Shown here piece by piece: positions 7,748-38,146 of a DNA stretch of 54,836 nucleotides (its first letter is position 1; every line of letters starts with the position of its first letter). Origin of the DNA: Microcaldota archaeon (GTDB lineage Archaea; Micrarchaeota; Micrarchaeia; Anstonellales; Bilamarchaeaceae). The position numbers and the translations under genes are program-made. The stretch is from positions 1 to 54,836 of the forward strand of contig JAUSHJ010000010.1 in assembly GCA_030648615.1 (NCBI GenBank). The letters are read 5' to 3'. The notes under the pieces were generated by a model, which was not told the DNA's origin, did no database searches, and worked only from the letters and a program-made list of their open reading frames with translations.

Positions 7748-8671
7748 CTAGATAAAACGAATCAATTTAGCTGCAAGAGGTAACAAAAATAATGATAAAA
7801 TAGTAGAAACAATTATTGCATTTCCAACCAATTCTTTTTCTGTTTTAAATTGCTCAGCAAGGACGAAATTAGTAACACCCATGGGCATTGCAGCCTGCAA
7901 AATTATTATCTGTGCCTCCATACCCCTAAAAGGAAATAAAATCACAAAGGCAAATGCAATAGCAGGTGCAACGAGGTTTTTCAAAGTGCAAAGCTTAATG
8001 ACTTCTTTTAAGTTTGGTATTGAATTTTTGTGCATGAACACTCCCAAAGCAAATAATGCAGTGGCAGATGCAGATGCACCCAAAAGTGAAAATGCACTTA
8101 CTATAAATTCTGGAACCTGAATTTGATTATATGTTACCAAATAGGATACGACAACTCCAAGAATAACGCTCCATGTTACCGGAACCTTTACAAGGTTAAA
8201 CAACATGTGCTGCATGTCTACTTTCTTACCTGAATAATATTGAAGAACAAAAACTCCAAAAGTGGAACCTATAAAGAAATATATAGCAGCGATTATAGCA
8301 GCGATAGGAACTGCACTTTCCCCTAGTGCCAACGAAATAAATGGAAATGCAATATAAACGTTACTTCCAAGAAAAGAACTTACTAGATATGCGGATATTT
8401 GTTTTCCTTTATGGTGCTGAAAAACTGAGGCAAGAAATGCGATTACTATTATTAGTACAATAGGAACTGTAATTGCTAAAAGCAAATCAGCATTTAGTAT
8501 TCTAAAATCTAATTTATAGAGGCTAATGAAAAATAGGGCAGGCAATGCAAAATAATATGCATAATTACTAAGTGCAGATACAGATTTTTCTGATAAAAGA
8601 GAGAATTTTTTAGCAAGCCATCCAAAAAAGATGATACTGAAAATAGATATTACTGCATCTAAAAGTGCCAT
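7748..8671 (-). CDS. AEC-family (auxin efflux carrier-type) transporter
   Basis: A 307-residue protein of about ten hydrophobic helices arranged as two five-helix halves. The start (LLDAVISIFSIIFFGWLAKKFSLLSEKSVSALSNYAYYFALPALFF) and the end (IIILQAAMPMGVTNFVLAEQF, then NAIIVSTILSLFLLPL) match the AEC/membrane-transport family, whose bacterial members move small organic acids or amino acids. Substrate cannot be read from sequence. The start is four bases from the stop of the upstream membrane-protein gene (8676-9428), so the two form an operon. Confidence 0.85.
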   Translation of the reverse strand: MALLDAVISIFSIIFFGWLAKKFSLLSEKSVSALSNYAYYFALPALFFISLYKLDFRILNADLLLAITVPIVLIIVIAFLASVFQHHKGKQISAYLVSSFLGSNVYIAFPFISLALGESAVPIAAIIAAIYFFIGSTFGVFVLQYYSGKKVDMQHMLFNLVKVPVTWSVILGVVVSYLVTYNQIQVPEFIVSAFSLLGASASATALFALGVFMHKNSIPNLKEVIKLCTLKNLVAPAIAFAFVILFPFRGMEAQIIILQAAMPMGVTNFVLAEQFKTEKELVGNAIIVSTILSLFLLPLAAKLIRFI

Positions 8672-23221: not shown

Positions 23222-24427
23222 ATGGCAGAATCACAAAAAGTATACGAGTTTAAAAAACAGCTAAAAAAACTCGCTACATTCAGAGGCAGTGGAACTGAAA
23301 TGATTTCAGTCTACATACCTTCAGGTTCACCCATGCACGAAACTTCCAACAAACTAAGAGAAGAATTAGGCCAGGCAAGCAATATCAAATCAAAAAGCAC
23401 GAAACTCAATGTCACAGGAGCATTGGAAAAAATACTGCAACATTTCAAATTATATAAAAAAACTCCTGAAAACGGCATCGCAATATTTGCAGGAAATACT
23501 TCAGAAAATACATCAAAAATTGATATCGAACTTTTTGCAATGGAACCGCCACAAAGACTTAACATTGGAACTTATAGATGCGACAGTAAATTTTTCCTTG
23601 AGCCACTGCAGAGAATGGTTGATAGTACAGATGTATATGGCATAGTTGTGATAGATGGCAGAGATGCTATCCTGGCATTAGTAAAGGGCACACAAATAGA
23701 CGTGGTAAAGAAAATGCACTCCATGGCACATGCAAAAATAAAAGTAGGTGGACAATCACAGAGACGATACCAACGAATTATAGAGGAAAGCATAGAATAT
23801 TTCTATAAAAGAGTTAGTGAAGCAATGGATGAATATTTCGCTAATAAAGTAAAAGGAGTCATAGTAGGCGGACCGGGACCTACTAAAGAATTTTTTATGA
23901 AGTTCAATGCTTTCGATTATCGAATAAAAGTTTTGGGAGTAGTAGATACTGGTTATACAGATGAATACGGAGTACGCGAAGTACTTGCAAAAAGTGAATC
24001 TTTCTTGGTAGAACAGGAAGGCATAAAGGAAAAGATATTAATAGATAGATTCATCAAAGATGTAATCCAAGATGGACTAGTAACCTACGGTCCTAAAATG
24101 GTTCGAGATGCGATACTGTCTAAACAAGCTGAAAGTATCCTTCTTTCTGAAGGATTGGAATATAGAAGAGGGGAGTATACTTGCTCATTGTGTGGTAGCA
24201 TACAAGAAAAAAATTCCAAGGAAAAACTACCTGAAAAAATACCTTGCGACAAATGTAATGGAGAAGCTAAAATAACCTCAGACACAGAATTATTGGAAAA
24301 TTTAATGGATTTGGCACGCTCCATGAACATCGAAATAAATATTATATCCACTGATACTAGTGAAGGTGTGCAATTTTTGAATGGGTTTACTGGAATTGGT
24401 GCATTTTTAAGATATCGAACTAGGTGA
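23222..24427 (+). CDS. prf1: Peptide chain release factor aRF1
   Basis: The 401-residue class-1 release factor recognises all three stop codons. Domain 1 carries the decoding motif NIKSKS (about residues 57-62). Domain 2 has GGQSQRRYQRIIEES (about 176-190), whose GGQ triggers peptide release. The C-terminal domain has a four-Cys zinc-type module (CSLCG, then CDKCN). Length matches archaeal aRF1. The last 22 bases of coding sequence are repeated exactly 171 bp downstream, with a stop codon in the same frame (see 24404-24596). Confidence 0.96.
   Translation: MAESQKVYEFKKQLKKLATFRGSGTEMISVYIPSGSPMHETSNKLREELGQASNIKSKSTKLNVTGALEKILQHFKLYKKTPENGIAIFAGNTSENTSKIDIELFAMEPPQRLNIGTYRCDSKFFLEPLQRMVDSTDVYGIVVIDGRDAILALVKGTQIDVVKKMHSMAHAKIKVGGQSQRRYQRIIEESIEYFYKRVSEAMDEYFANKVKGVIVGGPGPTKEFFMKFNAFDYRIKVLGVVDTGYTDEYGVREVLAKSESFLVEQEGIKEKILIDRFIKDVIQDGLVTYGPKMVRDAILSKQAESILLSEGLEYRRGEYTCSLCGSIQEKNSKEKLPEKIPCDKCNGEAKITSDTELLENLMDLARSMNIEINIISTDTSEGVQFLNGFTGIGAFLRYRTR
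24404..24425 (+). repeat. 22-bp direct repeat, copy inside aRF1 3' end
   Basis: This copy codes for the last residues of aRF1 (FLRYRTR). It contains AAGATATCGAACTAGGT and continues into the stop TGA. It is identical to 24575-24596. Confidence 0.9.
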
Positions 24428-24574
24428 GATTCTTAAAAAGCCTTGACATGACATTCATGTCAAGATTTGTCAGCATTTTTTGGCCCTGCTGACAAAGCCT
24501 TGAGTGAAAACGAGAGGATTTCTTAGGTATCGCACACGATAGCTAAGAAAATTTTGATCAGCAGGTCAATTGTT
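24426..24574 (+). other. Three-hairpin element between the direct repeats
   Basis: This 149-bp insert has no open frame worth calling. It contains three strong stem-loops: 24442-24464 (10-bp stem CTTGACATGA, 3-base loop), 24466-24496 (10-bp stem TTTGTCAGCA, 11-base loop) and 24519-24550 (8-bp outer plus 5-bp inner stem). AAAGCCTTGA occurs twice (24437-24446 and 24494-24503). With the flanking repeats it resembles a small non-autonomous insertion or a structured RNA at the 3' end of prf1. It also lies between converging genes, so a bidirectional terminator is the plainest alternative. Confidence 0.6.
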
Positions 24575-24596
24575 TTTTTAAGATATCGAACTAGGT
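24575..24596 (+). repeat. 22-bp direct repeat, downstream copy
   Basis: Exact copy of 24404-24425. Read in the aRF1 frame it would again give FLRYRTR followed by a TAA stop, as expected for an integration-site duplication at a gene 3' end. Confidence 0.9.
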
Positions 24597-24640
24597 AAAA
24601 ATAATTAGAGATTATATAAATCAATTAACTTTTATAAAAA

Positions 24641-25084
24641 TTAACCTAGTTTTATATCACAGGATTTCAAAGTATAATTAGCACCTACACCTATATTCAT
24701 TTTTTTAGCGTAAAATAGTGTCTTGTCACCCTTAGAAATATAAAAAACTATACCGTCCGCAGTATTACTACATTCGGAAAGTGTTTTCTCACCTTCAAAG
24801 GAAGTACATTTAGAGTCTTCCAATGCATAAATAATAATACTTTTATTCAATACTGCAAGACCCTGACTACCTGCAATGTCAATGCCACACTGCATGATAT
24901 TACGCCTATAAATATCATCTGAACCTCTAAGATCTTGTATTACATAAAATTTTGATGTATTTTGTATGGATAAAAGAAATTGCTGAGGATCCACTGTTTT
25001 CTCCTGATTTAAAAATATAAAATATGTGAAAGCTACTGCGACCAAGAAAAGTATGATTACTACAAGATTTTTATATTCAAACAT
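24641..25084 (-). CDS. Single-anchor extracytoplasmic protein, unknown
   Basis: The 147-residue product has an N-terminal membrane anchor (NLVVIILFLVAVAFTYFIFL, about 6-25) and an external domain with four Cys (MQCGID, SKCTSF, SECSNT, KSCDIK), suggesting two disulfides. I recognise no family. It follows the 707-residue surface protein by 16 bp on the same strand, so the two probably form one complex or operon. Both mix strand-rich segments with spaced cysteines. Confidence 0.65.
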   Translation of the reverse strand: MFEYKNLVVIILFLVAVAFTYFIFLNQEKTVDPQQFLLSIQNTSKFYVIQDLRGSDDIYRRNIMQCGIDIAGSQGLAVLNKSIIIYALEDSKCTSFEGEKTLSECSNTADGIVFYISKGDKTLFYAKKMNIGVGANYTLKSCDIKLG

Positions 25085-29525: not shown

Positions 29526-29654
29526 CCCTATTGTTCGACAATTCGAACAATGGGCGCATTGTTGCCTCTTTTTCTTGGCAACAATCGCGTGGGGCGATCT
29601 TCAAATATACCATATTTGAACGAGCTAGAGAGCTTTGCTCTCTGGACAATCGCC
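29526..29654. ncRNA. Structured intergenic element (hairpins and three-way junction)
   Basis: The 229-bp gap between converging DUF63 and DUF2070 genes is densely self-complementary. Stem A: 29530-29537 with 29544-29551 (ATTGTTCG), extended by CCC/GGG. Stem B: 29558-29566 with 29577-29585 (ATTGTTGCC), extended by GCG/CGC. Then a junction: GGCGAT 29593-29598 pairs with ATCGCC 29649-29654 and encloses TTCAAATAT hairpin 29600-29620 and AGAGAGC hairpin 29627-29643. It could be a stable RNA, a mobile structured repeat or a two-way terminator. No tRNA or known riboswitch core was recognised. The rest, 29655-29747, holds only small possible stems. Confidence 0.45.
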
Positions 29655-37513: not shown

Positions 37514-38146
37514 TCAACTCTTCCACTTAATTGAACACCCCATCGAAGGAAATTGTTTCACTGTCGTTTTCCCGCTTAGGAGTACTTGCTTTATCGCTTC
37601 CTCCAGTTCATTTGTAGTTGCAGCATCCTCTGATTTTCCATGGGCATCATCAATTCTTCCGTGATAAACCAGCTCTCTCTTTTCATTGAATAGATAAGGA
37701 TCTGGAGTGCAAACTGCACCATATTTTTTCGCAATCTGTTGTGTTTCATCCACAAGATAAGGGAAATTAAATCCTTTTTCCTTTGCCATCTGATTGATGG
37801 CAAAATTTTTCATCGTTTTTGTGCCCCGATGAAAATCCTTTGCAACCTGTTTCATTCCGTCTTCACTATCTTCAGAATTCTTTGAAGGGTCATTTGGATT
37901 TATTGCAACTAACTGGAAACCTAAATCCCCATAACGAGATTGCAAATCTACCATTTTCTGCATTTTAGGTTTTACATATGGGCAATGGTTACACATAAAG
38001 ATTATGAGCAATGCTTTTTTTCCCTTAAACTCTAATAAAGAATGATTTTTGCCATCAATTCCGTAAAGAATAAAAGAGGGTGCATTTTCCCCCAACTTTA
38101 ATACTGTATCATTTGATGTTAGTAAAACCACTTCAGTACAACCCAC
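37514..38146 (-). CDS. Thioredoxin-fold redoxin (AhpC/TSA-like)
   Basis: The 210-residue cytoplasmic protein has GENAPSFILYGIDGKNHSLLEFKGKKALLIIFMCNHCPYVKPKM, with the C-x2-C redox centre CNHC at about residues 53-56, then LGFQLVAINPNDP and the cis-Pro region CTPDPYLFNEK. This is the 'thioredoxin family' branch with CNHCPYVK, common in bacteria and some archaea. It likely reduces peroxides or protein disulfides, but partners are unknown. A Cys at residue 3 and another near the C-terminus (SMGCSIKW) could also take part. It is six bases from the arrestin-fold gene. Confidence 0.88.
   Translation of the reverse strand: MGCTEVVLLTSNDTVLKLGENAPSFILYGIDGKNHSLLEFKGKKALLIIFMCNHCPYVKPKMQKMVDLQSRYGDLGFQLVAINPNDPSKNSEDSEDGMKQVAKDFHRGTKTMKNFAINQMAKEKGFNFPYLVDETQQIAKKYGAVCTPDPYLFNEKRELVYHGRIDDAHGKSEDAATTNELEEAIKQVLLSGKTTVKQFPSMGCSIKWKS

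Follow-up and report, generated by a model that had tools for sequence, protein, structure and literature searches.

A dispersed double-hairpin palindromic element, very probably mobile, behind the prf1 gene of a Micrarchaeota genome

The 3' end of prf1

The DNA analyzed here (54,836 nucleotides, the window) makes up one of the 76 contigs of the genome under study (G000), which totals 1.65 Mb. The gene for the archaeal release factor aRF1, prf1, is ~70% identical to its nearest relatives, and the nearest named ones are Candidatus Micrarchaeota MAGs. The following features were found at the gene and in its 3' flank:

23222..24427 (+): prf1, ORF for archaeal peptide chain release factor aRF1, 401 aa (Pfam eRF1_1, eRF1_2, and eRF1_3)
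24404..24425 (+): X, first copy of a 22-mer at the prf1 end, exact direct repeat
24431..24439 (+): X', short inverted copy of the gene end, TCTTAAAAA (inverted repeats I14/I15), common to the sister-genus genome G033 by alignment
24437..24446 (+): left AAAGCCTTGA, target-site duplication of the double hairpin, with a 4-bp core AAGC or AGCC
24442..24464 (+): hairpin 1 of the element, stem 10/10 bp, 3-nt loop (inverted repeat and covariation)
24466..24496 (+): hairpin 2 of the element, stem 10/10 bp, conserved 11-nt loop TTTTTTGGCCC at 24476-24486
24494..24503 (+): right AAAGCCTTGA, target-site duplication
24519..24550 (+): hairpin 3, 13/14 pairs (inverted repeat I4), outside the dispersed unit
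24554..24569 (+): small hairpin TTGATC-AGCA-GGTCAA, read from the sequence and present in the MFE fold
24575..24596 (+): X2, second exact copy of the 22-mer, with an in-frame TAA at 24596-24598

As described in an earlier note on this DNA, two exact copies of the 22-mer TTTTTAAGATATCGAACTAGGT are present, at 24404-24425 and at 24575-24596; their starts are 171 bp apart, and 149 bp separate them. That note called it the last 22 coding bases; the repeat is exact, but it comprises the last 21 coding bases and the first T of the TGA stop. The second copy does run into an in-frame stop, reading F-L-R-Y-R-T-R and then TAA. The three stem-loops and the repeated 10-mer described between the copies were likewise recovered, the 10-mer AAAGCCTTGA starting at 24437 and again at 24494, 57 bp apart. 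The insert region folds strongly on the + strand (z = -6.5; none of 200 shuffles equally stable), and an Rfam 15 scan of the region gave nothing credible and no match near the gathering score. Integration at a tRNA gene end was rejected, as a tRNA scan of the window found no tRNA gene. A 147-aa ORF without a Pfam match lies downstream (window 24641-25084) and converges on prf1; a convergent ORF is apparent at the same position in several relatives.

A dispersed double-hairpin element and its target sites

Hairpins 1 and 2 at prf1 form a single unit, which is one copy of a dispersed element. When G000 was searched at the DNA level, hairpin 2 matched at five other places, and no further copy of hairpin 3 was found. 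A stem-pattern scan returned eight copies in G000 and no control matches. Scanning for the loop alone (TTTTTnnnCCC) added copies in which the stems differ and the loop is the same, nearly all of them preceded by a perfect hairpin. The unit consists of hairpin 1 (usually 8-10 bp with a small loop), a short spacer, and hairpin 2 (9-11 bp, usually with an 11-nt loop, conserved as TTTTTnTGCCC), and is 48-61 bp long; the prf1 copy spans 24442-24496.

Copies were counted with a covariance model, R1, which was trained partly on copies later counted with it. At a threshold of 40 bits, with each place counted once among 84 genomes of the order, approximately 24 copies were found in G000, 19 in G033, 20 in G034, one in G042, and one in G024, and none in the rest. 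Hairpin 2 of the prf1 locus was the best hit (78 bits). G033 and G034 belong to a sister genus and were the closest relatives compared. A phylum-wide search of 301 genomes (E <= 1e-5) returned the same five carriers only, all Candidatus Micrarchaeota, and an IMG/VR scan with one hairpin pattern gave no matches. The earlier suggestion that the insert holds a minimal mobile element without a gene is therefore supported, in the form of the hairpin 1+2 unit. The companion claim that it targets prf1 is not borne out: the unit is scattered over many unrelated loci in three genomes. The window itself holds a second copy, within a gene:

37514..38146 (-): redoxin-family gene with an in-frame element copy (Pfam Redoxin; alignment to 2ywi)
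37779..37786 (+): left TCCTTTGC, direct repeat beside the second window copy
37782..37835 (+): second element copy, with different stems and the same loop TTTTTGTGCCC
37836..37843 (+): right TCCTTTGC, pairing with the left copy 57 bp on

Several element copies stand in larger hairpin groups. In stretch L143 (contig C55 of G000) a second hairpin 1 and the start of a hairpin 2 seemingly adjoin an element copy, a layout that suggests tandem insertion or duplication. Stretches L016, L012, and L011 hold copies within chains of four to seven hairpins. The copies on contigs C65 and C32 have neighboring hairpins in common, which suggests that chains grow or move as blocks. Stretch L009 (contig C8 of G000) has a prepilin-like start, KGQSSMELLV, preceded by two degenerate KGQSS-like copies; a double hairpin is situated immediately upstream of the start. 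Stretch L198 of G079, from another family of the order, contains a similar double hairpin whose loop differs and whose flanks repeat AGCTTTT, which hints at an architecture that predates the carrier genus pair.

The sequences on both sides of the copies agree far more often than expected. In G000 the mean flank-sharing was 5.5 compared to 2.54 after permutation, and in the separate set from G033 and G034 it was 4.62 compared to 2.72, with none of 5000 shuffles as high in either case. Five of the 13 G033/G034 copies had no shared flank word of at least 3 bp. For 25 copies in which both hairpins were parsed mechanically, the 4 bp on each side agreed at 3.48 of 4 positions on average, compared to 1.92 when shuffled; the maximum in 20,000 shuffles was 2.64, and none matched the observed value. 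Flanks were identical at all four positions in 14 of these copies and at three in nine. Element and duplication together give a repeat period of 57 bp at three loci (prf1, gcvPA, and redoxin) and of 111 bp at the phosphosugar mutase gene, where it is succeeded by further hairpins. The ends of the element are fuzzy because stems and duplications overlap.

The prf1 site itself is not conserved among relatives. G033 has no double hairpin behind prf1 and shares the inverted piece TTCTTAAAAAGC with G000. Once the element and one copy of AAAGCCTTGA are omitted (57 bp), the G000 sequence aligns with G033 across the junction, through TGAG(A/G)TTCTTAAAAAGC and beyond. Judged by this alignment, the G033 flank is the empty site, such as the earlier note had expected in some relative. 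The target duplication is the internal 10-mer, and the mobile unit comprises hairpins 1 and 2 only; the proposal that the 22-bp duplication is the footprint of the element is not supported. Further empty sites are found in the DUF460 gene of relatives and, for gcvPA, mutase, and redoxin, in PDB homologues.

In these last three genes the hairpins lie in frame within the ORFs. Alignments place the extra residues at the hairpins in gcvPA (against 1wyt) and in the phosphosugar mutase (against 1wqa). The alignment of the redoxin to 2ywi is split, its two parts overlapping in the homologue at KVAEE, which is the duplicated target. Copies occur in either orientation relative to genes, and some of those inside genes are presumably translated, as their open frames suggest. 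The DUF460 gene has its GIDPG motif split: MYLIVGIDP runs into the element in one frame and the gene resumes as PGIKVGYAAIDLDG in another, the period here being 55 bp, a frameshift. Relatives read IVGIDPGIKTGYA or similar, with GIDPG unbroken. This DUF460 gene (contig C44 of G000) is without its N-terminus, lost to the double hairpin. Elsewhere in the same gene (stretch L168, 7792-7841), the alignment to relatives is interrupted by another hairpin pair, in frame and some 17 aa long, which belongs to a different family. For annotators, such genomes carry in-frame, non-homologous inserts (e.g., LSAGQKNADN) and false start codons.

The 22-bp duplication, stem evolution, and movement

The 22-mer could also be read in the way the earlier note preferred: a site-specific integrative element entered the 3' end of prf1, the two 22-mers are its attL and attR, and the remainder is a deletion scar. 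The second copy does read as a gene end with its own stop, the classic geometry, and G033 has a degenerate sequence of the same kind, ATTTTTAAGATAT...GAACTAAG, which lies 31 bp after the prf1 stop and reads GFLRYKKN-stop. In local alignment this sequence scores 29 against the G000 gene end, 26 against the second 22-mer, and 20 against an arm of hairpin 3, whose 5' arm aligns with it. In the 70 other relatives, no nearby copy of the gene end and no element bounded by such copies was found; the best downstream matches were chance-level 10-12-mers, up to 6 kb off. A larger, integrase-bearing element between gene-end copies, which the earlier note had anticipated in some strains, was thus found in none of the 71 relatives within the downstream sequence compared, which reached up to 6 kb. 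Moreover, the 149-bp interval contains no integrase gene, and a dispersed element that has a target duplication of its own accounts for the internal DNA. We therefore regard an integrative element at prf1 as improbable.

The sampled sequence, from stretches picked in part around known element copies, contains per 100 kb about 7.5 exact repeats of at least 14 bp whose copies are within 500 bp of each other. Most of these are in repetitive coding DNA and enclose no hairpins, and the prf1 pair is the only sampled one with two hairpins between the copies. Long direct repeats around hairpin clusters are not a general feature of the genome. The 22-bp copy appears to be a local duplication separate from the double-hairpin element. 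It may have arisen by template switching at the hairpins, the more likely origin, or be an old integrase scar.

The stems of the element are almost perfectly paired (97.3% of stem cells in 14 copies) and they covary. Changes in the stems of these copies were double in 37 cases (8.8 expected) and one-sided, of the G-U type, in two. Selected RNA stems usually pass through G-U intermediates. Since such changes are nearly absent here and copies lie in either orientation relative to genes, we infer that the perfect stems come from a process acting on DNA palindromes and not from RNA selection. The same data bear on the idea that the hairpins are a structured RNA in the prf1 mRNA (a terminator, stabilizer, or regulator), in which the gene end would pair alternatively with X'. 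The strong fold, the covarying stems, and the position on the sense strand of a 3' flank between convergent genes are all in keeping with it. It is nevertheless an unlikely explanation, given the two one-sided changes against 37 double ones, the copies within coding genes in either orientation, the lack of a credible Rfam match, and a site that is not conserved among relatives.

Perfect stems, compensatory changes, and hairpin chains, together with the inverted and direct copies at prf1, could also arise without any transposition, if template-switching (quasipalindrome) mutation had created the hairpins where they stand, with the direct repeats as by-products. Such mutation would not produce one 11-nt loop and one two-hairpin layout at unrelated loci of three genomes, as observed here, and formation in place seems very unlikely. 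Template switching may still explain the stem perfection and the 22-bp duplication.

It is very likely, in our assessment, that the prf1 flank carries a 48-61 bp non-autonomous, palindromic mobile element next to a separate 22-bp duplication. The unit consists of two perfect hairpins back to back, with a conserved loop in the second. The target-site duplications point to movement by insertion at a staggered cut of about 4 bp, with mobilization presumably provided in trans by a separate enzyme. Element and duplication most often add 57 bp, or 19 codons, and the sequence is readable without stops, so that some copies can sit inside genes. Paired changes keep the stems perfect, probably either through template-switch correction or because the hairpin is needed for movement. 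To judge from G033, the prf1 copy would have landed in a 3' flank that already held the inverted gene-end piece and the gene-end-like sequence.

In copies with a clear 3-nt spacer, the two ends of the spacer complemented the outermost bases of the duplicated target in 12 of 16 and 11 of 16 cases (56 and 15 of 20,000 shuffles were as good), a result that hinges on how spacer and stem are delimited, as the mechanical parse of 25 copies shifts the boundary and does not give the pattern in the same form. Because of this complementarity, the almost exclusively compensated stem changes, and the direct-inverted-direct layout at prf1, the element may be partly rewritten by its target, with insertion by fold-back (snap-back) synthesis that copies the target into the feet of the hairpins; we put this forward tentatively and think it rather doubtful. 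We know of no element for which a hairpin-templated mobility mechanism has been described.

Candidate mobilizers were sought in G000, G033, and G034, which are 75-90% complete. The single Y1 transposase of G000 is an ordinary one of the IS200/IS605 type with unrelated hairpins on its flanks, and no Y1 hit was found in G033 or G034. DDE_Tnp_1 is present in G033 and was not found in G000 or G034, and rve was found in none of the three. As a common mobilizer all three families were rejected, none being shared by all three carriers. No autonomous partner with matching ends was found with these three transposase families in genomes of this completeness.

Relation to known palindromic repeats

The multiple dispersed copies, target-site duplications, and empty orthologous sites found here are those of a MITE-like element; neither gene-end copies around an integrase-bearing element in relatives nor single-site specificity, as for a site-specific element, was observed. 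MITEs, moved in trans by DDE transposases, are likewise short and non-autonomous and make target-site duplications, and weak inverted ends (TTTGAC ... GACAAA) are discernible in the element. Unlike MITEs, it lacks long terminal inverted repeats, and neither a matching autonomous element nor a transposase common to the carriers was found.

Bacterial REP elements are hairpins of 20-40 bp, often dimers, with alternative complementary stem residues, and some lie inside genes (PMC3733652). The element shares all of these traits, and G000 does encode one Y1 transposase, so that a REP-type dimer moved by a REP-associated Y1 tyrosine transposase (RAYT) has to be weighed. REPs carry an unpaired GTAG or CGTC tag on one side of the hairpin (PMC3733652), whereas the flanks and spacers of the 25 parsed copies show variable target sequence and no such tag beside the stems. 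GTAG REP stems often show G-T pairing (PMC3733652), which is nearly lacking here. A GTAG-type RAYT gene is flanked by its own repeats, but the sole Y1 gene of G000 has different hairpins at its ends, and G033 and G034 carry copies without a Y1 match. IS200/IS605 enzymes are also not known to make a target duplication. The survey of REPs names bacterial phyla only (PMC3733652). Mobilization of a REP dimer by a RAYT is thus highly unlikely, and because of the missing GTAG/CGTC tag the element is not classed as a REP.

Rickettsia palindromic elements are small palindromic repeats in frame within unrelated metabolic genes, and how they are mobilized is not clear (PMC10969869). The element resembles them in behavior, with its in-frame palindromes in gcvPA, phosphosugar mutase, and redoxin. 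The Rickettsia elements are bacterial and about 150 bp long; the present element is archaeal, 48-61 bp long, and has two hairpins, a fixed loop in the second, and target duplications of about 4 bp. Mitochondrial hairpin elements of fungi and sponges occur as single, double, or multiple perfect hairpins with complementary substitutions, between and within genes (PMC2800124). Their double hairpins, which the archaeal element resembles in form, also differ by complementary substitutions and enter genes, but they are organellar, whereas the archaeal element has demonstrable target duplications (the term "direct repeat" does not occur in the text of PMC2800124); no common ancestry is implied.

The literature searched contained no report of palindromic elements in Micrarchaeota or DPANN, and on this basis the element is provisionally considered new. 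Gene-invading palindromic repeats are known from Rickettsia and mitochondria, where their mobilization is unsettled. Small Micrarchaeota genomes with target duplications, empty sites in relatives, and hardly any G-U steps offer a natural system in which to ask by what means perfect hairpins disperse and keep their perfect pairing, and how 19 additional codons are tolerated in conserved genes.

The double hairpin is not the only palindrome in these genomes. In 372 kb sampled from G000 (L162-L180), perfect hairpins with a stem of at least 9 bp and a loop of 3-6 nt occurred at 22 per 100 kb, compared to 2.8 in Markov shuffles, and adjacent pairs numbered 15 where none was expected, in chains of two to five. 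Many of the G000 hairpins are members of other families, in which a short outer stem and an unpaired purine are combined with an inner stem of the ATTGTT or ACAAAT type. Samples from G001, G004, and G042 were also rich in hairpins, and those from G033, G005, and G024 were poor. Within the window, a group of this outer/inner-stem type (ATTGTTCGA..., ATTGTTGCC...) lies at 29530-29620 between convergent genes. Pairs of similar form are found at other places in G000, for example in stretch L168 at 8328-8375, and seemingly once in G034 (L194).
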